A stretch of DNA of 64,000 nucleotides. Origin: Candidatus Schekmanbacteria bacterium. Its GTDB lineage: Bacteria; Schekmanbacteria; GWA2-38-11; J061. A model generated the notes under the pieces. It had not been told where the DNA came from and searched no databases. It saw nothing but the letters and a program-made list of their open reading frames with translations. The stretch is from NCBI GenBank assembly GCA_016219965.1, contig JACRJM010000007.1:186001-250000 (forward strand). The letters run 5' to 3'. Positions 21,200 to 57,734 of this stretch are shown here, piece by piece. A program made the translations under genes and the position numbers. The stretch's first letter is position 1, and every line of letters begins with the position of its first letter.

Positions 21200-21868
21200 A
21201 TGAGTCTTAACAAGGAACTTAATGATCAGTTAATGGCAAAAGAAAACTATGAGCGTAAAATTCTGGCATTTAAAATTTATGATGATATTCCCCAGGGGAT
21301 AGAATTCTACGGCAATGACATGAGCATGCTATGCGCTATTGCGGCCGAGGCATGGGAAAAACCCAGCCCATTTTATGTTACCAAGGAAAACTGCGTATGC
21401 GGCGGTTCTTTATATGCCGGGATAGGCTCAAGAAAAGTTTCAAAGGAAGAGCGGGAAGTGGGCATGAGCGTTCTTTTCGGAGAAGGAGCACCTTATGGCT
21501 CAAAAGCGGTTTTCAGGAAGGTCGGCCAACAAATTCCAAAACATCATAAACATCACAAATACCTTGTAATTGGCGGACTTGACAAGGTAGAAAATCCTGA
21601 CATTGTCCACATAACAGGGAATGCAAACCAGATTTACAAGCTTACAAAATCCTACACTTGGGAGACAGGCGAACTTGTACACGGACTTTCAGGAACATCA
21701 TGGTGCGCCCAGTCGCTTCCCGGCTCATACAGGGACCAGAAGATCACCTTCACCCTCGGCGACCATGGAGGAAGGAGCCTCATGGGTGTTAAAGATTATG
21801 AACTATTCTGCACTATCCCATACAAGCTGCTTCCAATGGTTGTAAAAAACCTAGACAAAGCATTATAG
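21200..21868 (+). CDS. DUF169 family protein
   Basis: A 222-residue cytoplasmic protein of the DUF169 family, whose function is not established. Visible features are a Cys pair in NCVCGGSLYAGIG (about residues 61-73), a His cluster PKHHKHHKY near residues 114-122 and a central LSGTSWCAQSLPG segment. The CxCGG and His-rich stretches could bind metal or a cofactor. It starts after a good ribosome site (TAGGAG). An SDR gene follows 22 bases after the stop, so the two probably form an operon at the edge of the first bilin-reductase-like locus. Confidence 0.8.
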   Translation: MSLNKELNDQLMAKENYERKILAFKIYDDIPQGIEFYGNDMSMLCAIAAEAWEKPSPFYVTKENCVCGGSLYAGIGSRKVSKEEREVGMSVLFGEGAPYGSKAVFRKVGQQIPKHHKHHKYLVIGGLDKVENPDIVHITGNANQIYKLTKSYTWETGELVHGLSGTSWCAQSLPGSYRDQKITFTLGDHGGRSLMGVKDYELFCTIPYKLLPMVVKNLDKAL

Positions 21869-21890
21869 CCCTGTGAGGAGGAAAACTTAT

Positions 21891-22697
21891 ATGGATACAA
21901 GATGCAGAAGATTAGCTGGGAAAAATGCCATTGTGATCGGAGGGGGAAGCGGAATCGGCAGAGCAGGTGCCATAAGGATGGCTCAGGAAGGGGCGAACAT
22001 AATCATCGCCGACATCGTAAAAGAAAGAGTTGATAAAACAGTACCTGAAATAGAAAAACTCGGGAGAAAATCTCTTGGCTTTGTCGTTGATGCGGCAAAG
22101 CTCAATGAACTTGACGAGCTTGCAAAAAAATCAATCGATGCATTCAGACAGATTGACATACTTGTTTACAGCGCAGGTGTAGGAGATAAAAACGATCCAA
22201 TACTTGAAGTATCATTGGAAAAATGGGAATGGATCTTTGCCGTAAACCTGAAGGGGCTTCTTTATATTACACAAAAGATTGCAGCCCATATGATTGAAAA
22301 GGAGCTAAAAGGAAAAATCATAACATTTTCTTCAACAATGGCAAAAACACCGCAGGGTGGAGGCGGCGGAGCATACGTTGCGTCAAAAGCAGGCGTAATT
22401 GGTCTTACAAAAGCACTTGCCTGTGAGCTTGGAATCTATAACATAAATGTGAACTGCATATGCCCCGGACTTATTGACACACCAATATGGCACACCGGAG
22501 ACAGGGCAGCCGATATGCCGCCGGGGAGCATGGTGAAGATGGTTGCAGAACAGGCGATTATTAACGGGCAGCTAAAAATCCAGCGGGTAGGGGCGCCTGA
22601 AGACCTTGCCGGTGGGATTGCATTTCTGGCATCAAGTGATTCGGATTATGTGACGGGACAGGCTTTCAACTTATGCGGAGGCCTCGAATTCCACTGA
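21891..22697 (+). CDS. SDR family oxidoreductase
   Basis: A 268-residue NAD(P)-dependent short-chain dehydrogenase. Rossmann motif GGGSGIGR near residue 20, LVYSAGVGD, catalytic SSTMAK Ser, and Y-x3-K in AYVASKAG; the C-terminus has YVTGQAFNLCGGLEF, matching the family VTGQ-x-GG pattern. The ATG at 21891 is chosen over an in-frame GTG at 21873 because the ribosome site GAGGAG sits between them. Substrate unknown. It shares a transcript with the DUF169 gene and ends 1 base before an inverted-repeat element. Confidence 0.9.
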   Translation: MDTRCRRLAGKNAIVIGGGSGIGRAGAIRMAQEGANIIIADIVKERVDKTVPEIEKLGRKSLGFVVDAAKLNELDELAKKSIDAFRQIDILVYSAGVGDKNDPILEVSLEKWEWIFAVNLKGLLYITQKIAAHMIEKELKGKIITFSSTMAKTPQGGGGGAYVASKAGVIGLTKALACELGIYNINVNCICPGLIDTPIWHTGDRAADMPPGSMVKMVAEQAIINGQLKIQRVGAPEDLAGGIAFLASSDSDYVTGQAFNLCGGLEFH

Positions 22698-22698
22698 T

Positions 22699-22822
22699 GG
22701 GAATGTAAGATTTGGCCTTATACTTTGGCATCCGCCAGCTTACAAATACTCACATACCAAAAAGTATGCTCCGTTTTGTTCGCTGACAGCTTTCGCGTCT
22801 AAGTCTCAAATCTTACATTCCC
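22699..22822. repeat. Inverted-repeat element R1, 124 bp
   Basis: Perfect 16-bp terminal inverted repeats: GGGAATGTAAGATTTG at 22699-22714 and its complement at 22807-22822. An inner hairpin CATAC/GTATG sits at 22753-22768, inside the family core GGAGCATAC (read on the minus strand). It has the same ends and core as R4 and R5. No coding capacity. A non-autonomous mobile element or REP-like unit. Confidence 0.85.
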
Positions 22823-22840
22823 AAGTAAATAGCTTTATTA

Positions 22841-22898
22841 AGTACACTCCGCTTTACTCAACGTCCGCTTTCGCGTCTTCCACGCAAATATTCCACTC
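22841..22898. repeat. Half copy R2 of the inverted-repeat family
   Basis: Contains the core-proximal ACTCCGC and the outer TCTTCCACGCAAATATTCCACTC arm, similar to the right half of R1 and R3, without the left terminal repeat. Confidence 0.6.
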
Positions 22899-22918
22899 AA
22901 GTAAAAATGGTTTACCTA

Positions 22919-22986
22919 TTCACAAACACTATGCTCCGCGTTTCTCACCGGTCATTGCCTCGTCTTCCATCCAAATCTTGCACCCC
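22919..22986. repeat. Half copy R3 of the inverted-repeat family
   Basis: Contains CTATGCTCCGCGTTTCTCAC and the arm CGTCTTCCATCCAAATCTTG. Read on the minus strand, it closely matches the left half of R4 (GACGAGGCAGTGAC, GGTGAGAAACGCGGAGCATA). It ends 2 bases past the stop of the toxin pseudogene. Confidence 0.7.
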
Positions 22987-22988
22987 AA

Positions 22989-23303
22989 TTATTTTTCTCT
23001 ATCTTCCTTTTCCCAAAGCTTTTTCAAGTCCCGCCTCCCATGGATTATTCCCAATATCTCAATTCGTAGCCGGGAAATTTTATATACTAAGCGGTAATCT
23101 TGAACAAAAAGTTCGCGAATTTTTGAATTGCTGATTTCGGGAACTACACGTCCTCTTTCTGCAAATTCATTGAGAGTTTTACTCGCAAAAATAATTTCCT
23201 GAACAAAACCTGCTGCATAAAAGACTGAATCTTTTTATATAAATTCTGCAATATCGCTTAAATCAGTAACCGCTTCCTGCGACCAAATTACTTTGCGAGC
23301 CAT
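22989..23303 (-). pseudogene. ParE/RelE-type toxin with in-frame stop
   Basis: Reading the minus strand from ATG 23303 gives a 104-residue toxin of the ParE/RelE superfamily. It starts MARKVIWSQEAVTDLSDIAE and continues with KDSVFYAAGFVQEI, the core ELFVQDYRLVYKI and IEILGIIHGRRDL, all typical. The frame is broken once, by TAA at 23237-23235 (codon 23), between EFI and KDS. No frameshift is seen, so this is a single nonsense change. The antitoxin gene overlaps its start by 16 bases. Sequencing error cannot be excluded. Confidence 0.8.
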
Positions 23304-23476
23304 TTTGCCATCTTCTTCTCAACTTCTTCCTGCGTATAAAACCGACCTTCTTCTATATCTTTCAATCCACGCTCAATTTTTTGAAGGACATATAGATGAT
23401 ACTGTATATCTTCCAGTGTGCTGTTTTCCGGTAAGCTACTAAGAAGATTTCTTACTTCCTGTTTTGCTTTCCCCAT
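23288..23476 (-). CDS. Antitoxin of a ParDE/RelBE-type module
   Basis: A 62-residue, charged, helical protein with no cysteine. The end GRFYTQEEVEKKMAKWLAK, with EGRFYTQEEV, is typical of short antitoxins encoded before ParE/RelE toxins. Its stop overlaps the toxin start by 16 bases. A ribosome site AAAGGGA lies 5-6 bases before the ATG. It seems intact although the toxin gene is interrupted. Confidence 0.75.
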   Translation of the reverse strand: MGKAKQEVRNLLSSLPENSTLEDIQYHLYVLQKIERGLKDIEEGRFYTQEEVEKKMAKWLAK

Positions 23477-23629
23477 AACAATCCCTTTTAGCTAAAATAT
23501 TTTTATATTTGTTCAATGTTGAAAAAAACCAAACTACTTTCATAGTATTTAGGTCCAACTGTTTAGATAGTATCTTATTTGATTCCAATTTGAAAACATT
23601 TTTTCACACAAGATGAGAACAAGCGTTGA

Positions 23630-23866
23630 TGGATTATAATATTATGGCGTGATATTGATGTTGCCATAGTTTCGCCTGATTTTTCAGGAACGCCATTTTA
23701 TGACAGAGGAATGTTTATACCATATCAGTTAAATACTGATTTCAGAATCGAAGTGCATCTTTTCAGACCGGAAGATTTTACCAACGACAACTTCTTTGGC
23801 AAAGAAATTATAAGATGCGAAATTGAAGGGGTAAAAAAATATTATTTTGAGGAATGCAAGATTTGA
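23630..23866 (+). pseudogene. Nucleotidyltransferase-domain protein, 5' truncated
   Basis: The frame is open from 23630 after TGA 23627-23629 but has no usable start. It encodes WRDIDVAIVSPDFSGT, then LNTDFRIEVHLFRPEDF and FFGKEIIRCEIEGVK. The DIDVAIV strand and the IEVHLFRPEDF block match MNT-type nucleotidyltransferases, while the GSxARG helix that should come first is absent. The last codons (EECKI, TGA at 23864-23866) lie inside inverted-repeat element R4, which therefore supplies the stop. Confidence 0.7.
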
Positions 23867-23972
23867 GTGGAAGACGAGGCAGTGACTGGTGAGAAACGCG
23901 GAGCATACTCAGTTGTATGTGAGCAGTTGCGAACCAGGCACTAACGAAGTATTACCTCAAATATTGCATTCC
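23851..23972. repeat. Inverted-repeat element R4, 122 bp
   Basis: Terminal repeats GGAATGCAAGATTTGAG (23851-23867) and its complement with one mismatch (23956-23972). Inner core CGGAGCATACTCAGTTGTATG near 23899-23919. It overlaps the end of the nucleotidyltransferase remnant and stops 11 bases before the stop codon of the bilin-reductase-like gene. Confidence 0.85.
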
Positions 23973-23983
23973 CTCCGCGAAAC

Positions 23984-24706
23984 TTAGAACAGGGCTTCTA
24001 AGGAAAGCTCCGCCATCTCTTCCCCCACAGCCTTTACCACCATAATCCCGCCCGGATCCTTCTCCCTGAAGTTAATCCTGATCGCTTCCCTGCGTTCAAT
24101 GAGACGCTTCATGTAATTTTTATCTTTCGGCTCTGCTTTCTTCCAGAGATCAACGAATATCTTGAAATAATCCATTGTCAGTTCCATTATCTTGTTCTGC
24201 GAATCCTTTGTGCTTGGCGCAATATTCCCTGTAATGCAGTAAGGAGAGCTCAATGCCCTGAACCAGTTAGTGCTCATGCCGCTAAGTCCGGGAAAGTATG
24301 TTCTTGTTCCCTTGTCATAGGCATCTTCGAGAGGGTCAAGATTCTTCTCCATGTAAGGGATATCAACAATGCAGTCTGCCGTTGGATAAAGATCAATAAT
24401 GAAAAAGCTCCCCTTCTTGTTTTCCGCCCAATAAGAAGAAAAAACAGGAAGATCATGTTCATCATCAGGCCAGATCATCATGGCATAGGACATAAGCATT
24501 TCTTTAAAGCTCTGAAAACCGACTACAATCTTTTGAAGTTTGGGAGCCTTGTAAAGATACTTGTAGCTTTTAAAGCCCTCTCCATTTAAATCCCAGAGGG
24601 GCTTTATGTCCTTACCATTGTAAGACTCCATTCTCGTTCCGCCGAAAACCTTGACGGCATCTTCCATCACCTCCATGTATGGAGGAAAACTATATTCTTC
24701 AGACAT
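23984..24706 (-). CDS. Ferredoxin-dependent bilin reductase-like protein A
   Basis: A 240-residue soluble protein. The block HDLPVFSSYW followed by FFIIDLYPTADC corresponds to the PLLGxD...LDFxP region of ferredoxin-dependent bilin reductases (PcyA/PebA/RCCR superfamily). The Asp in IIDLYP aligns with the catalytic Asp of PcyA. Then come LEDAYDKG and NWFRALSSPYCI, and the C-terminus has the family pattern ...FREKDPGGIMVVKAVGEEMAELSLEALF, like the FGEEWAE...LF end of PcyA. A second paralogue is at 55501-56208. In this segment there are no photosynthesis genes. Substrate unknown; the call rests on motif reading. Confidence 0.72.
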   Translation of the reverse strand: MSEEYSFPPYMEVMEDAVKVFGGTRMESYNGKDIKPLWDLNGEGFKSYKYLYKAPKLQKIVVGFQSFKEMLMSYAMMIWPDDEHDLPVFSSYWAENKKGSFFIIDLYPTADCIVDIPYMEKNLDPLEDAYDKGTRTYFPGLSGMSTNWFRALSSPYCITGNIAPSTKDSQNKIMELTMDYFKIFVDLWKKAEPKDKNYMKRLIERREAIRINFREKDPGGIMVVKAVGEEMAELSLEALF

Positions 24707-24800
24707 TTTTATCTCCCAGATTTAAAAGTTTTATAATCACAGAACAAAACATTTATTTGTTCGATACATTAAGTAATTCAATTTTCAAAGTTTCATTCTT

Positions 24801-24826
24801 TTGTCAATCTAAAATTAGTCTGACAA
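24801..24826. promoter_or_regulatory. 26-bp palindrome in divergent promoter region
   Basis: TTGTCA-N2-CTAA-N2-TTAG-N2-TGACAA, symmetric at 20 of 26 positions. It lies midway between the divergent starts of the bilin-reductase-like gene (24706) and the metallophosphoesterase gene (24874). Shape and position fit an operator for a dimeric regulator. Inferred. Confidence 0.5.
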
Positions 24827-24873
24827 TCTTCAGGCTGTTGCTTTTTGAAGTTAAAGTTTGTATATAAACTGCC

Positions 24874-26100
24874 ATGCGAAACACGAGTTTACTTTATCTT
24901 GTACTTTCTCTTTTATTGTTCTCGACTATCATTGTAACAACACAGTGGTATCTCGGCAAAAGGACGCTTAGATGGGTTGGGAGGCTTGACCTTCCAGATA
25001 AGAAGAAAAGACTTTTAAAGGGACTAACAATCTGCGCCCTGGTTTTTCTTAATATGCCTTTGGTTTACACCTTTATCGCAGGCGTTCCGAAGAACCCGGT
25101 TCCCCCGCTAATCATGTATCCCATAGTTTATCCATATGCTATATGGGGAAGCTCTTATGTGTTTATCTTAATAATCCTGAAGCTAAAAGATCTCATCTCT
25201 TTTGCTTTGAGAAAAACAAAAACTCTTGCAGGCAGAAGTTCCTCACAACCAGCGGAAAATGAAATTTATACTGACCCTTCACGGAGAAATTTTTTAAGCA
25301 TTGCAGGGAAAAGTATAGTGGCTGCACCTGTTGCTCTTTCATGTTACGGAGTATTTATAGGCAAACAAAATTATATAACACGGGAAGTGAATATCAATAT
25401 CCCCGGTTTACCGATGGAACTTCAAAGACTAAAAATAGTCCAGATAAGCGATATCCATTGCGGCATATTCATGGGCGAAGCTGAAATCAGGAAATGGATA
25501 AACATCCTGGAATCTCTTAAGCCTGACATACTTCTTGTAACTGGAGATTTTGTAGGCACTTCCAATGACTCGGTCGAATATTGCGCCGCAGGACTAAAAT
25601 ATCTCCGCTCTATGATGCCTATATACGCATGCCTCGGAAATCACGATTATTACGGCAATGAAAAAGATTTAATCGGCGCTATCAGCAATAGTGGTGTAAA
25701 CATACTCCGAAACAGCTCTGATACAATTGCATTTAAGGGTGCAGACTTAAATATTTGCGGTGTAGAGGACATGATGAATTCAGATCCTGATCTTGCAATC
25801 GCAGTAAAAAAGATTGATGACACTAAAGCCACAATCCTTATGTCCCATAATCCAAACTATTTCAAAGAAGCAAAAAAACATGGAATAGACCTCACCATAT
25901 CAGGGCATACGCATGGAGGACAGGTAGATATAAATCTTGCAGGCCTTTACTTAAGCCCGGCTCAGCTCATAACCAAATATGTAAAAGGGCATTTCATAGA
26001 AAACGGATGCAACCTTTATGTTAATGCAGGAATCGGCACTATAGGATTTCCTCTCCGTCTCAATGTCCCGCCTGAAATAACAGTTTTCAAGCTCATTTAA
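24874..26100 (+). CDS. Membrane-anchored metallophosphoesterase
   Basis: A 408-residue protein. Four hydrophobic helices in the N-terminal 120 residues, then SRRNFLSIAG followed by a hydrophobic stretch (an internal Tat-like anchor), then a calcineurin-like phosphoesterase domain (about 185-408). Metal-binding motifs are complete: SDIHCG, GDFVG, GNHDYY, MSHNP and GHTHGGQ. The closest families are YaeI/YkuE-type phosphodiesterases that act on lipids or envelope substrates. Divergent from the bilin-reductase-like gene; ends at a terminator shared with the convergent PCP_red gene. Confidence 0.88.
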   Translation: MRNTSLLYLVLSLLLFSTIIVTTQWYLGKRTLRWVGRLDLPDKKKRLLKGLTICALVFLNMPLVYTFIAGVPKNPVPPLIMYPIVYPYAIWGSSYVFILIILKLKDLISFALRKTKTLAGRSSSQPAENEIYTDPSRRNFLSIAGKSIVAAPVALSCYGVFIGKQNYITREVNINIPGLPMELQRLKIVQISDIHCGIFMGEAEIRKWINILESLKPDILLVTGDFVGTSNDSVEYCAAGLKYLRSMMPIYACLGNHDYYGNEKDLIGAISNSGVNILRNSSDTIAFKGADLNICGVEDMMNSDPDLAIAVKKIDDTKATILMSHNPNYFKEAKKHGIDLTISGHTHGGQVDINLAGLYLSPAQLITKYVKGHFIENGCNLYVNAGIGTIGFPLRLNVPPEITVFKLI

Positions 26101-26130
26101 TTAATTTTACCTTTGAATCATCAAATAAAA

Positions 26131-26172
26131 AAGCTGCGGCAATAACGTCCAAAGTACATACTGCCGCAGCTT
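26131..26172. terminator. Bidirectional terminator
   Basis: Perfect 11-bp stem AAGCTGCGGCA/TGCCGCAGCTT with a 20-base loop between two convergent genes. It is flanked by an A-run on the left (AAATAAAA) and a weaker T-run on the right, so it is strongest on the minus strand. Confidence 0.75.
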
Positions 26173-26201
26173 AAAGTAAATTTAACCTTTTATTTTAAAA
26201 A

Positions 26202-27131
26202 CTAATTTGCTGATTTGAAAATCTTCTCGAAAATTGGCGCAATGCCTGTTCTCGTGAGGATTGAAGTAATGCTCTCTTCTCCGATTGCCTTTTCTTTTAT
26301 AAACTGTATTGATTTTTCAAGCGCGCTGAAAAGCTCCGCCTCAGTTGCCACACGATATATCTCGTATCCTACCTTGTGGTGGCGTCCAAATGCGCCTCCC
26401 ACAGTCAATGCATATCCTCTTTTTTCTACACCGAGAGTCCCTGTGGGGCATACTTTAACGCAGGCTTCGCATATCTTGCACTTGCCGTAATCTATCTTAG
26501 GTTTCCCGTTTATCAGAAGAACAGCATTATCAGGGCATCTGTTCACGCAGGCATAACACTGGGAACATTCAACATCTGTGACTATCGGAATAGCTGTACC
26601 ATGAATCCCAAATTCCTTGTGTGCCGTACCTGTGCATGAGTTGGGGCAGGCAGAAATGGAAAATGATATTCTGTTATGAGGGAGTATCCTCTCGTCATCA
26701 TGAAGCATGTCAGCCACCATTTCTGAAACCTTCAATTCCTGGAGCCTTTTCTTCAATTTAGCGGCTAACTGCCTTACCTCGGCAATCTGTGATGTACAGC
26801 GGAAGTACTGAGCATGGCAAAGATCGATATCGAACATATCTATTTCCTTTGCCAGGATGTCGCGTGCTTCCTTTTCCATCTTCTCCATTAAATCTGCTTC
26901 GCCTTCTTTAATCCTCTTATCCCATTCTTTGAGCCTTGATTCTTCAGAAACAACGCCAAAATAAACTCTTTTTGTTGCCTCAATCTCCTTCATTGTTACT
27001 TTGCTGCTTTTGTTAAAGCGTGCTTTCTTTTCAGCAAACACCTTTGCCATTGCCTTCGCCATGTCTGACAAGGGCATTTTTATAAATGCCTGTTCCGCCT
27101 CTGGTTCCCACTGCATATTGCAATCCTCCAA
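26202..27131 (-). CDS. PCP_red / sirohaem-reductase-like / ferredoxin fusion A
   Basis: A 309-residue iron-sulfur protein. Residues 6-55 (QWEPEAEQAFIKMP...) fit the PCP_red domain, the C-terminal domain of the protochlorophyllide reductase BchB. A sirohaem-reductase-like half follows: C-x6-C in CHAQYFRC, then C-x3-C in ACPNSCTG followed by HKEFGIHG. Next is a 2x[4Fe-4S] ferredoxin with CSQCYACVNRCP and CKICEACVKVCP, and finally GYALTVGGAFGRHHKVG, as in AsrC/DsrA-type proteins. The first ferredoxin-like domain of true sulfite reductases is missing. A paralogue is at 56230-57141. Probably an electron-transfer or reductase subunit. Confidence 0.8.
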   Translation of the reverse strand: MEDCNMQWEPEAEQAFIKMPLSDMAKAMAKVFAEKKARFNKSSKVTMKEIEATKRVYFGVVSEESRLKEWDKRIKEGEADLMEKMEKEARDILAKEIDMFDIDLCHAQYFRCTSQIAEVRQLAAKLKKRLQELKVSEMVADMLHDDERILPHNRISFSISACPNSCTGTAHKEFGIHGTAIPIVTDVECSQCYACVNRCPDNAVLLINGKPKIDYGKCKICEACVKVCPTGTLGVEKRGYALTVGGAFGRHHKVGYEIYRVATEAELFSALEKSIQFIKEKAIGEESITSILTRTGIAPIFEKIFKSAN

Positions 27132-27232: not shown

Positions 27233-27889
27233 TTAAAGAGCATGGTCAAGGAGCATAATCATGGGCCTCTTAGGAAGTGTTCCCTTTGTTATGGTTATCT
27301 CGCTTGTTGCCATGAGAGATATGTTTCTTTTCCGATCTACAAACTCATCAATGCGGGCAAGAGGGAAGCCGCACTTATCGGTCTTGTAATGCATAGGGAT
27401 TGTAATCCGGGGCAAAATTGATTGGATCACCTTGTCAGCTTCCTGGGAGTCGATCGTAAAAATACCGCCAATCGGTATTAGAAGAACATCAACAGGCTTT
27501 ATCTTTCCTGCCAGTTCTTCATCTATTTCATGTCCAAGGTCTCCAAGATGGCACACCGTAACATCATCAACCGTCATCTTGAATATGATAATTTTCCCGC
27601 GCTCAGCTCCGCCCTGTTTGTCATGGTGTGCTTCAATTCCCTCAATATTTATCCCATTAACAGAAAACTTGTCTGCACTGTCAATAAGCTTGAATTCTCC
27701 AGGGACTCCTTCCGAATGGCCGTGGTCTCTATGGTTATGAGAGCAAAGCACAGCATCAGCGGTATCGTTTATCGGATGATATCCAATCGCTCCGTCGTAA
27801 CCTCCGGCTTCGTAAGGATCAGTTATTATCTTTGTTCCGTTGTCACCGGTTATAAGAAATGATGAATGTCCATACCATTTTATTTTCAA
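27233..27889 (-). CDS. Metallo-beta-lactamase fold hydrolase (UPF0173-like)
   Basis: A 218-residue cytoplasmic hydrolase of the YtkL/UPF0173 group. Starts MKIKWYGHSSFLI as in the family. The zinc motif SHNHRDHGH (HxHxDH) is complete, with HLGDLGH and PMHYKT supplying the later His/Asp ligands. It lies 101 bases upstream of the PCP_red fusion on the same strand and could be co-transcribed with it. It diverges from the O-methyltransferase gene. The substrate is unknown for this group. Confidence 0.88.
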   Translation of the reverse strand: MKIKWYGHSSFLITGDNGTKIITDPYEAGGYDGAIGYHPINDTADAVLCSHNHRDHGHSEGVPGEFKLIDSADKFSVNGINIEGIEAHHDKQGGAERGKIIIFKMTVDDVTVCHLGDLGHEIDEELAGKIKPVDVLLIPIGGIFTIDSQEADKVIQSILPRITIPMHYKTDKCGFPLARIDEFVDRKRNISLMATSEITITKGTLPKRPMIMLLDHAL

Positions 27890-27983
27890 TCCATTCCTCC
27901 TTCAGATAAATCTGGCTGATAAATCCATTCTGTTCTATATATCTCTACTTGTAATCCTACATAGATTTTTTGATAATAGCAAT

Positions 27984-29033
27984 ATGACGAAGAAAAAAAG
28001 AGTTATTACTAATAATTTCATAAATTCTAAGGTCAGCAAGGACCCTATATGGGAAATGGCAATGGCTTTTCAGGTGAGCAAAGCCCTTTTCCTGGCAAAT
28101 AACCTTGATATATTCACGATTCTTTCCCGGAAACCGGACACCGCTGAAGCAACCGCAAAAAAGCTGAAACTTCAATCCAGACCTGTAGAGAGGCTTTTAA
28201 ACGCCATGTCAGCTTTCGGGCTGCTGAAGAAAAAAGACGGGAAATATTATAATACCGATATGTCTGAGACTTTTCTGGTCAAGGGAAGGCCTGAGTACTT
28301 CGGGAATTATCTCAATGCCATCAACGAGGTTTACCGCGCGTGGTCGGATTATGAAAAAGTCGTAGAAAACAACAGTTCAATCCCTCTTTTTCGCAAAGAT
28401 TATGCGGAAGGACAGGAGGTCATTCACAGGATGATGCTCGCACAGGAGGGATTCAGCTTCAGGCAGGCCGCCTATCTTCCGGAAGTATACGATTTTTCCG
28501 GGCACAGACTTCTTCTCGATGTCGGCGGAGGCACAGGAATCTTTTCTGTAATGGCAGTTAATGCTAACCCGAATCTCATGTCCATTATATTTGATGTGCC
28601 TCCCGTATGTGCCGTTGCCCGCGAACGGATAAAACTTTACAAGGCAGAGAAAAAGATCAAAATCATGGAAGGTAATTTCATCACAGACAATCTGCCGCAG
28701 GGTGCGGATGCGGCGTTACTCTCAACAATCCTTGATGCCTATGATGATAATGATTGCAGACATCTCATAAAAAAGGTATTTGATAGTTTAAAGCCAGGGG
28801 GCACCATTATCGCAAATGAGATGATGCTCAATAAAGAAGGGACTGGCCCGCTTTTTCCTGCGATTTTTTCCCTTGAACTCATGATTGAAAGAAACCGCGG
28901 CAACTCGAGAAAAATCGATGAAATAAAAGGGTGGATGAAAGACGCAGGATTTACGAAAATAAAATGCAGACCGCTTTGGCTAAAAGGAGAGACTTATCTT
29001 AACTGCTGGATTGTAACCGGAAAGAAACGATGA
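27984..29033 (+). CDS. Class I O-methyltransferase, HIOMT/BchU-like
   Basis: About 349 residues. The N-terminal winged-helix dimerisation domain (about 20-100, with ATAKKLKLQSRPVERLLNAM) precedes the SAM-binding domain with LLDVGGGTGIFS and a late LKPGGTIIANEM loop. This is the architecture of hydroxyindole O-methyltransferase, CrtF and BchU. The ATG at 27984 is preferred over an in-frame start at 27840, which would run into the divergent MBL gene. It overlaps the PHP gene by 4 bases. BchU-like enzymes methylate bacteriochlorophyllides, but this family is broad and the substrate is not inferable. Confidence 0.85.
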   Translation: MTKKKRVITNNFINSKVSKDPIWEMAMAFQVSKALFLANNLDIFTILSRKPDTAEATAKKLKLQSRPVERLLNAMSAFGLLKKKDGKYYNTDMSETFLVKGRPEYFGNYLNAINEVYRAWSDYEKVVENNSSIPLFRKDYAEGQEVIHRMMLAQEGFSFRQAAYLPEVYDFSGHRLLLDVGGGTGIFSVMAVNANPNLMSIIFDVPPVCAVARERIKLYKAEKKIKIMEGNFITDNLPQGADAALLSTILDAYDDNDCRHLIKKVFDSLKPGGTIIANEMMLNKEGTGPLFPAIFSLELMIERNRGNSRKIDEIKGWMKDAGFTKIKCRPLWLKGETYLNCWIVTGKKR

Positions 29034-54698: not shown

Positions 54699-55433
54699 TT
54701 AAATTCTTGCGTAGCAAGTCTCCCCCGGTGTCATCTTAATATCCACACCCATCTCTTTCCCAAATCCTGAGTAGAGAGGTATGCAGAGGTTATTGCAGAC
54801 ATCTTTCCACTCGATGCTGAACATCTTAAGAGGTTTGCAGACTTCAAGAATCCCTACATATGGGCAGGGGAAACTTCTCTCACCCGGCTTTACAGTTATT
54901 TCTTCAAAAAGCTGGACAGAACACATTGTTCCGTCAAACGTTGTCGTAAGCGCCAACTCAGGCCCAAAAGATGCTATCTGGACTTTTGCCCTGTGGAGTA
55001 TGGGCATCATTGTGTTTATGTAGTGAGTAATAAACTCTTTCTGTATTCCTTTCTGAACGGCAAAATCTATGGAATTAAGCCATGATTTTGTTAGCGCATC
55101 ATTGAACTTGTGCTGATATGGTCTTTGGTTCGCATATGTCTTGAAAAGAACTTTTAAGGCTTTCCCTATCTGCTCGGAATCAAATTGCGGGAGAGGGAGT
55201 CTCTCTCCTCCTTTGCCTCCACCCATTCCGGTTCCTGCTCCGGCGCCCATTCCTGTTCCCATACCTTCAGGCTTCTGTCCGCCACCCTGAGGCATTCCGC
55301 CTGCCTCTCCGACAGCCATAGCCAGAATAGGGTTTGTAAGAATGGCCGCACTTCCCAGTACACCAGAATACTTCAGAAAATCCCTGCGGGTACTATTTTT
55401 TTCTGAAGCCGTTTCATTTAACTCTTTTTTCAT
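54699..55433 (-). CDS. Tat-exported protein of the second bilin-reductase-like cassette
   Basis: A 244-residue protein with a twin-arginine signal (NSTRRDFLKYSG, then hydrophobic segment to AMA), a Gly/Met-rich linker (about 43-78, with GMGTGMGAG repeats) and a C-terminal domain of about 165 residues. That domain contains MCSVQLFEE, SFPCPYVG, and ends VCNNLCIPLYSGFG ... GETCYARI. The Cys pattern resembles the L-2-amino-thiazoline-4-carboxylic acid hydrolase (ATC_hydrolase)/V4R-like fold, weakly. Third gene of the cassette, 67 bases after the bilin-reductase-like gene. Exported after folding, so a cofactor is likely. Confidence 0.6.
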   Translation of the reverse strand: MKKELNETASEKNSTRRDFLKYSGVLGSAAILTNPILAMAVGEAGGMPQGGGQKPEGMGTGMGAGAGTGMGGGKGGERLPLPQFDSEQIGKALKVLFKTYANQRPYQHKFNDALTKSWLNSIDFAVQKGIQKEFITHYINTMMPILHRAKVQIASFGPELALTTTFDGTMCSVQLFEEITVKPGERSFPCPYVGILEVCKPLKMFSIEWKDVCNNLCIPLYSGFGKEMGVDIKMTPGETCYARI

Positions 55434-55500: not shown

Positions 55501-56208
55501 TCAGAATAAAAGAGAAAATACAAACTCTGCTGTCTCATCGCCAAAGGCTTTCCTCAACGGACCTTCTCCGGGATCATTCTCGCGAAGCGTTGCAAACATG
55601 GCTTTTTTCCTGCCAGTCAAAAGCTCCATGTATTTTGGATCCTGTTTTTGAGCATCAGCCCAAAACTTTGTATAGAGATTTAGATAATCCGCTGTGATCT
55701 CAAGAGACTTGTCTTCTATGCCTTCCTGTTCATATTTGAATTTCCCGCTGGTGTAAAATGGAGACAACATTGCCCTGAACCAGAGATAGTTCTCCCGGCA
55801 CATTCCATGAATATCCTTATACTTTTCCCACAAAGACTCCATTGGTTCCGCATACTTTGTGAGATAACCTAAATCGCGCCCGCAATCAGCAGTCGGAATA
55901 AGGTCAACCCTCAAGCTTACATGACTCGCAGCCTGGACAAGTTCGGAAGAGAATACGGGAAGGTCATACTCATCTTTGGGCACAACAGTTGTCGCCCATA
56001 CGATAAGTTTCCCGCCGAGAATCGTAGCTTTCATCATTATGATCTTTTCAATCTTCTCAGCCTCGTAACAACGGATCTCCTCTTTCATCATATCTGATTC
56101 TATGTTTTCAAGGAATGTGATGTCTTTGCCTTTGAAGGTAGTCATCCGTTTCGGGTTTATGAGCTTTAGCCCCTCAAGCAATGTTTCAAAATAAGGAATA
56201 TTTTTCAT
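55501..56208 (-). CDS. Ferredoxin-dependent bilin reductase-like protein B
   Basis: A 235-residue soluble protein, paralogue of 23984-24706. Shared blocks: YDLPVFSSELV, then LRVDLIPTADCGRDLGY with the catalytic-type Asp, LWEKYKDIHGMCRENYLWFRAM (shortened here) and LSPFYTSGKF. The C-terminus LTGRKKAMFATL... ENDPGEGPLRKAFGDETAEF, ending LLF, matches the bilin reductase tail (KNDKT...FGEEWAE...LF). It starts 21 bases after the PCP_red fusion gene, so both are made from one transcript, unlike locus A, where another gene lies between them. Substrate unknown. Confidence 0.75.
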   Translation of the reverse strand: MKNIPYFETLLEGLKLINPKRMTTFKGKDITFLENIESDMMKEEIRCYEAEKIEKIIMMKATILGGKLIVWATTVVPKDEYDLPVFSSELVQAASHVSLRVDLIPTADCGRDLGYLTKYAEPMESLWEKYKDIHGMCRENYLWFRAMLSPFYTSGKFKYEQEGIEDKSLEITADYLNLYTKFWADAQKQDPKYMELLTGRKKAMFATLRENDPGEGPLRKAFGDETAEFVFSLLF

Positions 56209-56229: not shown

Positions 56230-57141
56230 CTAACATTTGCATTTGTGCGGCGGGCTGGCAAAAACACGTCTTGTTATATAGTCAAGCCCCACCTTGTCAA
56301 CGACCTGAGCAAGAAAATGCTCATCGCCCATTTTTTCCTTTATAAGGTTTACTACTGCATCAAGAGTTTTGAATATATCCTCTTTCTGCCCTATCCTGAA
56401 TACTTCTTTGCCTACAGTCTGCATCCTGCCGAATGTGCCTCCAACAAGTATCCTGTATCCTTTTTCTTTTGATGATATCGTACCCGTTGGACATGCTTTG
56501 ATGCACATACCGCAAAGAACGCAAAGCCTCTCATTGATAACAGGCTTTGCCTGCTCTTCGAAGCTGACTGCTCCGTCCCAGCAGACATGGTAACATTTCT
56601 TGCAGTTGATACATTCCACATTTTCATTCACCTGCGGTCTTTCTACTCCATGAATCCCGAAGTCCTTGGCTTCAGGGGCAGAGCACCCGCTGGCACAGCT
56701 TGAGATTGATACCGTGAACTTATTATGCGAAATTAATGGACCATGCGCCTTATCCGCCATTATCTCGGTAATCCCATATTCTTCCAGCTTCTCAATGATA
56801 GGGACAACCAGCTCTCTTACATCTATTATCTGGGCAGGACATCCGAAATATTTGGAATGGCAGGCTTCAACCTGATAGAGACAGTCTTTCCCTTCCTTTT
56901 CCGTAGGAGGGATTTCAGGCATGTCCCCGCTTGCCATGCAGGCGCAAAGCTTATCAACAAACTTCTTTCCGAAGAACTCGTCATAGTCTTTTATTGTCTG
57001 CTTCACATCTTCAACTATTACCTTTGCATGCTTTTCCCGACGGGCGATCTTTTCAGCATAGATTCTCCTCATAGGTATCTGAGGAGGACCTGCGACAATG
57101 TTATTATCAAAATATTCTACCGCTTCTTTTTCCCACTCCAT
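56230..57141 (-). CDS. PCP_red / sirohaem-reductase-like / ferredoxin fusion B
   Basis: A 303-residue iron-sulfur protein, paralogue of 26202-27131 with the same domain order. PCP_red-like N-terminus (MEWEKEAVEYFDNN...RRIYAEKIARREKH), C-x6-C in CHSKYFGC, C-x3-C in SCASGCSAPEAKDFGIHG, ferredoxin with CINCKKCYHVCW and CVLCGMCIKACP, then GYRILVGGTFGRMQTVG. The first ferredoxin cluster reads CYHVCW, so Trp replaces the usual Pro after the last Cys. The protein ends with KCKC. Likely electron donor or partner of the adjacent bilin-reductase-like protein. Confidence 0.82.
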   Translation of the reverse strand: MEWEKEAVEYFDNNIVAGPPQIPMRRIYAEKIARREKHAKVIVEDVKQTIKDYDEFFGKKFVDKLCACMASGDMPEIPPTEKEGKDCLYQVEACHSKYFGCPAQIIDVRELVVPIIEKLEEYGITEIMADKAHGPLISHNKFTVSISSCASGCSAPEAKDFGIHGVERPQVNENVECINCKKCYHVCWDGAVSFEEQAKPVINERLCVLCGMCIKACPTGTISSKEKGYRILVGGTFGRMQTVGKEVFRIGQKEDIFKTLDAVVNLIKEKMGDEHFLAQVVDKVGLDYITRRVFASPPHKCKC

Positions 57142-57266: not shown

Positions 57267-57734
57267 CTAATTGCTTTTCCTCTGGGCCAAAATAATTCCG
57301 GCACAGGCAATAAACGAGATCAGTGGGAATAGAAATTCAGGAACGTAAACACCGGGAATAAGCCTTCCTTCCGTTGAAAACCTCGCAAAGTTTTCAGCAA
57401 GTATATAGACCAGCGTGAAAAGGAAATTGGACATGAATGCCCAAAACTTTTTTAGTGCTGAAGTCTTTAATGGTTTAACAAGCACATAATAATAAAGGAC
57501 TATGAATGCGACTGTATAAGTATTGATCAGGATACTGTAAAAAGGCGCCTTAAGAAAATAATGATTTATGATATAAAAACTTGCGCCAACAAGGGTTACA
57601 AGAGAATACCTCCATCCATCTAATTCAACCTTAAACCACTTTTTATACATATAAATTAGGAAGAGATAAGCAATCCAGGTACCGAAAGCCAGCTCATAAA
57701 ACTGCACCTTCCCTTCCCAGCTTTTGTCTATCAT
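57267..57734 (-). CDS. Five-helix membrane protein, unknown
   Basis: A 155-residue polytopic protein. Hydrophobic segments at about 15-30, 44-61, 68-87, 98-114 and 131-149, with a short Arg/Lys tail (QRKSN). No motif points to a family. It lies 125 bases downstream (minus strand upstream side) of the cassette and could have its own promoter. Confidence 0.6.
   Translation of the reverse strand: MIDKSWEGKVQFYELAFGTWIAYLFLIYMYKKWFKVELDGWRYSLVTLVGASFYIINHYFLKAPFYSILINTYTVAFIVLYYYVLVKPLKTSALKKFWAFMSNFLFTLVYILAENFARFSTEGRLIPGVYVPEFLFPLISFIACAGIILAQRKSN

Follow-up and report, generated by a model that had tools for sequence, protein, structure and literature searches.

Two loci within a 64,000-bp window of the 3.58-Mb genome of a Candidatus Schekmanbacteria bacterium (positions 186001 to 250000 of contig C7; the genome, G000, is in 18 contigs) each carry a gene resembling the ferredoxin-dependent bilin reductases (FDBRs) and a gene for a fusion protein that combines a sulfite reductase-type domain with a ferredoxin. 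The question raised by the first of these loci (locus A, genes FDBR-A and fusA) is whether it repeats the pair found at the second (locus B, genes FDBR-B and fusB). The first-pass annotation had read locus A as a repeat of the locus B pair with a divergent gene between its members, and had taken the two retained copies as an argument for two related substrates or steps. We compared the window with three relatives, G001 (a sister genus in the same family; 370 contigs), and G002 and G003 (same order; completeness 99% and 70%, respectively). The reductases proved to be members of a family of eight, and fusB-FDBR-B is the only conserved reductase and fusion pair of the two loci. The four genes concerned are as follows.

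23984-24706, minus strand: FDBR-A, FDBR/RCCR-fold reductase-like open reading frame (ORF), 240 aa
26202-27116, minus strand (a TTG start at 27131 is also possible): fusA, PCP_red-like N-terminus, siroheme-type 4Cys half of a sulfite reductase domain and 2x[4Fe-4S] ferredoxin
55501-56208, minus strand: FDBR-B, 235 aa, Glu at the Asp105 column
56230-57141, minus strand: fusB, 21 bp upstream of FDBR-B, adjacency kept in G001

The distance of 1.5 kb between FDBR-A and fusA agreed with the first-pass annotation, and the conserved pairing that it implied was not found in the relatives. In G001, FDBR-A (73% identity) adjoins genes for an SDR oxidoreductase and a DUF169 protein on contig C252, and fusA (73%) lies apart from it on contig C1, next to the metallophosphoesterase (MPE) gene (53%) that stands between the two genes in the window; a FolC-like gene (name assigned by eye) is located below the MPE gene, where FDBR-A would be. 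Sequence in G001 extends only 4.9 kb beyond FDBR-A in one direction and 3.3 kb in the other, and the 4.9-kb flank contains no fusA. In G002, fusA (66%) directly follows an MBL hydrolase gene (54%), matching the arrangement in the window. This genome has a third fusion gene, fusC, in addition to fusA, and its three FDBRs all fall outside the A/B type. These contexts indicate two blocks, DUF169-SDR-FDBR-A and (MBL-)fusA-MPE, which occur together in G000 only among the genomes examined. fusC was present in all four genomes without an adjoining FDBR.

As claimed, the paralogues are diverged between the loci (32% identity for the reductases and 32% for the fusions), and both copies have been kept: FDBR-A, FDBR-B, fusA and fusB are intact in the sister genus at 70-74% amino acid identity, with a nonsynonymous divergence (dN) of 0.19-0.23 and saturated synonymous change. 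Over the six orthologue pairs tested, dN was 0.17-0.25, and the saturation of synonymous divergence (dS) yields no dN/dS ratio. The number of copies was underestimated, as the genome holds eight FDBR genes and three fusion genes. In the reductase tree, FDBR-A and FDBR-B were sisters (support 93/90) and nearest paralogues within an 11-sequence clade confined to their own family, while fusA, fusB and fusC formed a three-way split of unresolved order, and a constraint placing fusA and fusB in one clade was not rejected in the approximately unbiased (AU) test (p 0.464). Co-duplication of the pair, for which co-branching had been proposed as a test, is neither shown nor excluded by the trees. Linkage and gene presence, not trees, decide against locus A as a conserved unit. 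Instead of two copies there is a family of eight whose catalytic residues have switched, and the unit for study is the fusB-FDBR-B operon together with the whole paralogue set, rather than a duplicated pair.

The ORF at 24706-23984 was correctly described as bilin reductase-like. FDBR-A matches Fe_bilin_red (PF05996) in Pfam with an E-value of 2.7e-12 and 47.3 bits, and FDBR-B scores 65.4 bits (cut-off 31). Scores against the NCBIfam equivalog models for PcyA, PebA and PebB stayed far below cut-off, the best being 29.5 bits for FDBR-A and 43.3 bits for FDBR-B against a cut-off of 327. An AlphaFold2 model of FDBR-A predicted from ten sequences, in which viral FDBR loci served solely as rows of the input, had a pLDDT of 73.9 and a pTM of 0.76, with residues 109-117 and 123-152 poorly modelled. 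It matched PebB (6qx6) with a Z-score of 21.8 over 224 aligned residues (root-mean-square deviation 2.6), followed by HY2 (Z 21.1), PcyA (20.9), RCCR (20.2), PebS (16.9) and HemF (15.5); PebB, HY2, PcyA and RCCR aligned over 218-224 residues. With the FDBRs (PcyA, PebA, PebB, PebS, HY2) and RCCR, FDBR-A and FDBR-B share the Fe_bilin_red match above cut-off, the fold, the DLPxF motif and the DPG-motif Asp. They differ from the known FDBRs in the replacement of Asp105 by Tyr (A) or Glu (B), in having eight paralogues in a single genome, and in the lack of any equivalog assignment.

Fe_bilin_red matches numbered eight in G000 (seven above the family cut-off), 12 in G001, and three each in G002 and G003. 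Contig C7 carries six of the eight in G000 (P 2e-4, uncorrected for the number of contigs, 18), and FDBR-A ranks sixth of eight by family score (46.7 bits in the genome scan, best 146.3). The 37 other genomes scanned together with the relatives gave no match. A wider survey of 386 genomes, in which at most seven candidates were scored per genome, gave eight genomes with a match, four of them outside the phylum with one match each; three of these four, with E below 1e-77, are probably cyanobacteria.

PcyA numbering was set by the mutant chain 4eoe (H74A), which places Asp105 in the LFGCD motif. Among 26 Schekmanbacteria sequences this column contained Asp in 11, Glu in seven, Asn in six and Tyr in two, and five changes were counted on the tree of the full set of 34. 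The Tyr of FDBR-A and the Glu of FDBR-B are each fixed in both genera, and their G001 sister keeps Asp; the DPG-motif Asp and an invariant Asp (Asp102 in FDBR-B numbering) are retained in both proteins. As the switches at Asp105 are fixed across genera, different chemistry of FDBR-A and FDBR-B is plausible. The proposal of two related substrates or steps is therefore reasonable for the reductases, whose copies are kept and differ at this column, and unsupported for a unit of reductase and fusion. FDBR-like genes without Asp105 and the DPG Asp were observed in apparent glycosyltransferase/ABC export clusters of G002 (L042) and G003 (L045), and the G002 copy adjoins an apparent B12-binding radical SAM gene.

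The fusA ORF at 26202-27131 on the minus strand encodes 309 aa with the TTG start, and the orthologues favour the ATG at 27116. Its description as a PCP_red fusion held for the position of the ORF; the recognised domains are NIR_SIR (30.1 bits in fusA and 47.3 in fusB, cut-off 27) and ferredoxin, and PCP_red (PF08369) scored 14.1 bits in fusA, below the curated cut-off of 32.5, with no reported match for fusB. The name is nevertheless defensible, because two relatives with the same layout, from G259 and G320, pass the PCP_red cut-off (51.3 and 52.9 bits). These PCP_red-NIR_SIR-Fer4 proteins share the architecture over 278-279 aa at 20-29% identity. By eye, their genes (L131, L132) adjoin apparent hybrid cluster protein and CO dehydrogenase genes, not an FDBR. 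Nine full-length fusions were found across the four genomes (three in G000, three in G001, two in G002 and one in G003), and the four cluster Cys are invariant in all nine aligned rows. With the Dsr-like proteins, AsrC and the C-terminal half of Fsr (PMC3448663, PDB 7np8), the fusions share NIR_SIR, the C-x6-C and C-x3-C motifs, and the inserted 2x[4Fe-4S] ferredoxin, and fusion profile positions 127-294 align to Fsr 442-609. They differ in that the PCP_red-like segment replaces the first sulfite reductase half, and the AsrC equivalog model TIGR02912 gave 51 and 61.7 bits against a cut-off of 324.1. The AlphaFold model of fusA was poor (pLDDT 46.5) and was not used.

In known FDBR systems the reductase acts behind heme oxygenase. 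In contrast, no heme oxygenase was detected in the four Schekmanbacteria genomes at E ≤ 0.1, with a Synechococcus control positive, and V4R, a marker of pre-PcyA bilin clusters, was found in none of the four. HutW/ChuW was considered as a bilin source and rejected, as none of the four genomes had a HutW match above cut-off; the sub-cut-off matches are presumably HemW. Hydroxymethylbilane (HMB) synthase is encoded in three of the four genomes and absent from the 70%-complete G003, and its presence indicates that tetrapyrroles are made. In G001, a HemF-like gene (E 2.2e-11) is located directly behind FDBR-B, in place of the TAT-signal protein gene of the window, and following up this gene showed that another family with this fold is multiplied as well. 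Matches to PF01218 (HemF-like) numbered seven in G000, four in G001, three in G002 and two in G003. HemF, coproporphyrinogen III oxidase, has its fold in common with the FDBR-A model and a family that is also multiplied, and it belongs to a separate Pfam family. In hhalign comparisons with the HemF-like set, the A/B-type FDBRs (ten of the clade of 11, the G001 FDBR-A row being left out) gave a weak collinear alignment with probability 46 and E 2e-4, all FDBRs gave E 5e-4 and the known FDBRs E 0.1, each E-value referring to a single comparison. The profile link between FDBRs and HemF-like proteins is suggestive, not proof. The seven HemF-like genes of G000, among them L067:14518-15441, are distributed over contigs C4, C7, C8 and C15, and one of the seven, with an apparent signal peptide, is 4.6 kb from an FDBR gene. 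Aldehyde ferredoxin oxidoreductase-like genes adjoin several HemF-like genes in G000 and G001 (by eye; L274, L279, L277), and one, identified with Pfam, adjoins a G001 FDBR (L035).

We lean slightly towards the interpretation that FDBR-A is one of eight Schekmanbacteria paralogues of the FDBR/RCCR fold, supplied by ferredoxin and acting on a substrate other than heme oxygenase-derived biliverdin, and that the copies divide the work, FDBR-B with fusB and FDBR-A without a dedicated partner. Family, fold, copy number, conservation, residue switches and linkage were observed directly, as was the failure to find a heme oxygenase; the electron flow, substrate class and division of labour that we infer would be as follows. 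By analogy with known FDBRs, FDBR-A probably reduces a conjugated substrate via ferredoxin, most likely a tetrapyrrole other than the biliverdin of heme oxygenase. The eight copies would split substrates or reduction sites, the residue at the proton-relay Asp105 differing by subgroup (FDBR-A has Tyr and FDBR-B Glu; other copies carry Asn or Asp). The electron donor of FDBR-B is probably the ferredoxin domain of the co-oriented fusB, joined to a tetrapyrrole/Fe-S module, and that of FDBR-A is probably a free ferredoxin. In this reading fusA belongs with the MBL hydrolase. A ferredoxin donor fits the observation that another FDBR gene of G001 has a gene for an 84-aa 2x[4Fe-4S] ferredoxin directly upstream.

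Several points weigh against this interpretation. The Schekmanbacteria group is weakly placed relative to known FDBRs (support 48/10), and the neighbours DUF169, SDR, MBL hydrolase and methyltransferase of locus A are not tetrapyrrole-specific. By chance alone, fusA or fusC would lie no more than 1.6 kb from an FDBR with a probability of about 0.017, and FDBR-A and fusA may yet be functionally associated in this one genome. The substrate and electron donor of the FDBRs are predictions, and because the assemblies are fragmented, the missing heme oxygenase or linkage could partly be a gap.

Among the alternatives, it is unlikely that FDBR-A and FDBR-B are ordinary bilin reductases working on scavenged biliverdin, or on biliverdin from an oxygenase missed by the models. 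Such a role would suit the clear FDBR family and fold, and pre-1 enzymes without Glu76, His88 and Asp105 retained slight activity according to the text of Rockwell et al. 2023 (PMC10151467); against it stand the NCBIfam scores far below cut-off (29.5 and 43.3 of 327), the absence of detected heme oxygenase and V4R from all four genomes, and the tree in the same text, where the Schekmanbacteria FDBR-like group lies between FDBRs and RCCRs and is placed in the RCCR outgroup. A catalytically dead FDBR-A, with Tyr for Asp105, that binds a tetrapyrrole or similar ligand is a little more unlikely still. The Tyr is found in both genera and the family score is only sixth of eight, whereas the retained DPG Asp and invariant Asp102, and the strong purifying selection (dN 0.19), argue against a loss of activity. 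Least probable is a two-component enzyme of reductase and PCP_red fusion duplicated as a unit, one copy per related substrate or step: retention of all four genes in both genera, the sister relationship of FDBR-A and FDBR-B and the AU result are compatible with it, and the unlinked FDBR-A and fusA of G001, the fusA and fusC of G002 without an A/B-type FDBR, the fusC genes without adjoining FDBR and the conserved association of fusA with MBL (G002) and MPE (G001) oppose it.

A broader interpretation, which goes beyond the preferred assignment of FDBR-A and which we consider rather doubtful, is that the metabolism of Schekmanbacteria is free of oxygenases and rests on one fold that has radiated twice in parallel, as FDBR-like proteins (8 copies in G000, 12 in G001) and as HemF-like proteins (7 and 4 copies, respectively). 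These enzymes would use ferredoxin-type partners and carry out new chemistry where Asp105 has been replaced. The text of PMC10151467 describes the known enzymes of the fold (FDBRs behind heme oxygenase, RCCR, HemF) as all ultimately O2-dependent and argues that FDBRs postdate oxygen. An oxygenase-free metabolism, if true, would break this published rule and might show what FDBRs did ancestrally, and with both branches of the fold multiplied and no detectable heme oxygenase, the O2-dependence claim becomes directly testable. The FDBR-like proteins of Schekmanbacteria have already been published, and the group in PMC10151467 is from the same phylum and protein family as here; the passages compared here give no copy number, context, residue pattern or partner genes for that group. 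It was the only source found to join 'Schekmanbacteria' and 'bilin', and copy number, lack of detected oxygenase, residue switches and contexts were not found in print within that scope.

The other features surrounding the two loci are listed below.

21200-21868, plus strand: DUF169 protein, member of the conserved FDBR-A block (70% in G001)
21873-22697, plus strand: SDR oxidoreductase, member of the FDBR-A block in both genera
22698-23983, no strand: insertion/decay zone between SDR and FDBR-A, with palindromic REP-like repeats and gene remnants
24874-26100, plus strand: LpxG/YaeI-like MPE, divergent from FDBR-A; adjoins fusA in G001 too (53%)
27233-27889, minus strand: MBL-fold hydrolase (Lactamase_B_3), encoded immediately upstream of fusA in the same orientation; adjacency also in G002
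27840-29033, plus strand: Methyltransf_2 O-methyltransferase family protein
54699-55433, minus strand: TAT-signal protein, downstream of FDBR-B; no Pfam family above cut-off
57267-57734, minus strand: 155-aa protein, upstream of fusB; no Pfam match

The gene between FDBR-A and fusA, previously described as an envelope metallophosphoesterase, is a Metallophos gene, and the nearest NCBIfam models, LpxG (137 bits, cut-off 350) and YaeI (125 bits, cut-off 188), both remained below cut-off. The MBL hydrolase and the methyltransferase are present close by, as noted before, and the label 'BchU/HIOMT-like' is loose for the latter, which scores 51.8 bits against a cut-off of 276 for the BchU model TIGR02716; its dimerisation domain begins at residue 69, and the start first called is probably too early. 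Of the six Methyltransf_2 genes in G000, three lie no more than 5 kb from an FDBR (P 2.5e-4, the family having been picked after viewing the window), namely the one in the window, L064:10537-11649 and L066:13148-14182, one of them directly upstream of the FDBR on the same strand. None of 184 control genes matched Methyltransf_2, and none of the three Methyltransf_2 genes in G001 shares a contig with an FDBR; the link is kept as a lead only. Specific neighbour families of FDBRs in general were rejected, as seven recurrent pairs among 74 neighbours compare with 12 among 184 control genes, and the SDR and ABC pairs are unspecific.

The gap between the SDR gene and FDBR-A is 1.29 kb in the window versus 84 bp in G001. 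The zone at 22698-23983 contains two palindromic units of about 120 bases each and partial copies; the repeat arms, GGAATGYAAGATTTGAG, have four matches in the 64 kb against 0.08 expected, and a scan of the window with Rfam gave no match. Remnants in this zone resemble, by eye, a nucleotidyltransferase gene that has been truncated and the two genes of a small toxin-antitoxin system interrupted by an in-frame stop. DUF169 genes are also found near two different FDBR paralogues of G001 (L039:2129-2842 and L038:7494-8165), as near FDBR-A in the window. A 173-aa protein encoded beside the third A/B-type FDBR of G001 resembles, by eye, the 155-aa protein at 57267-57734.

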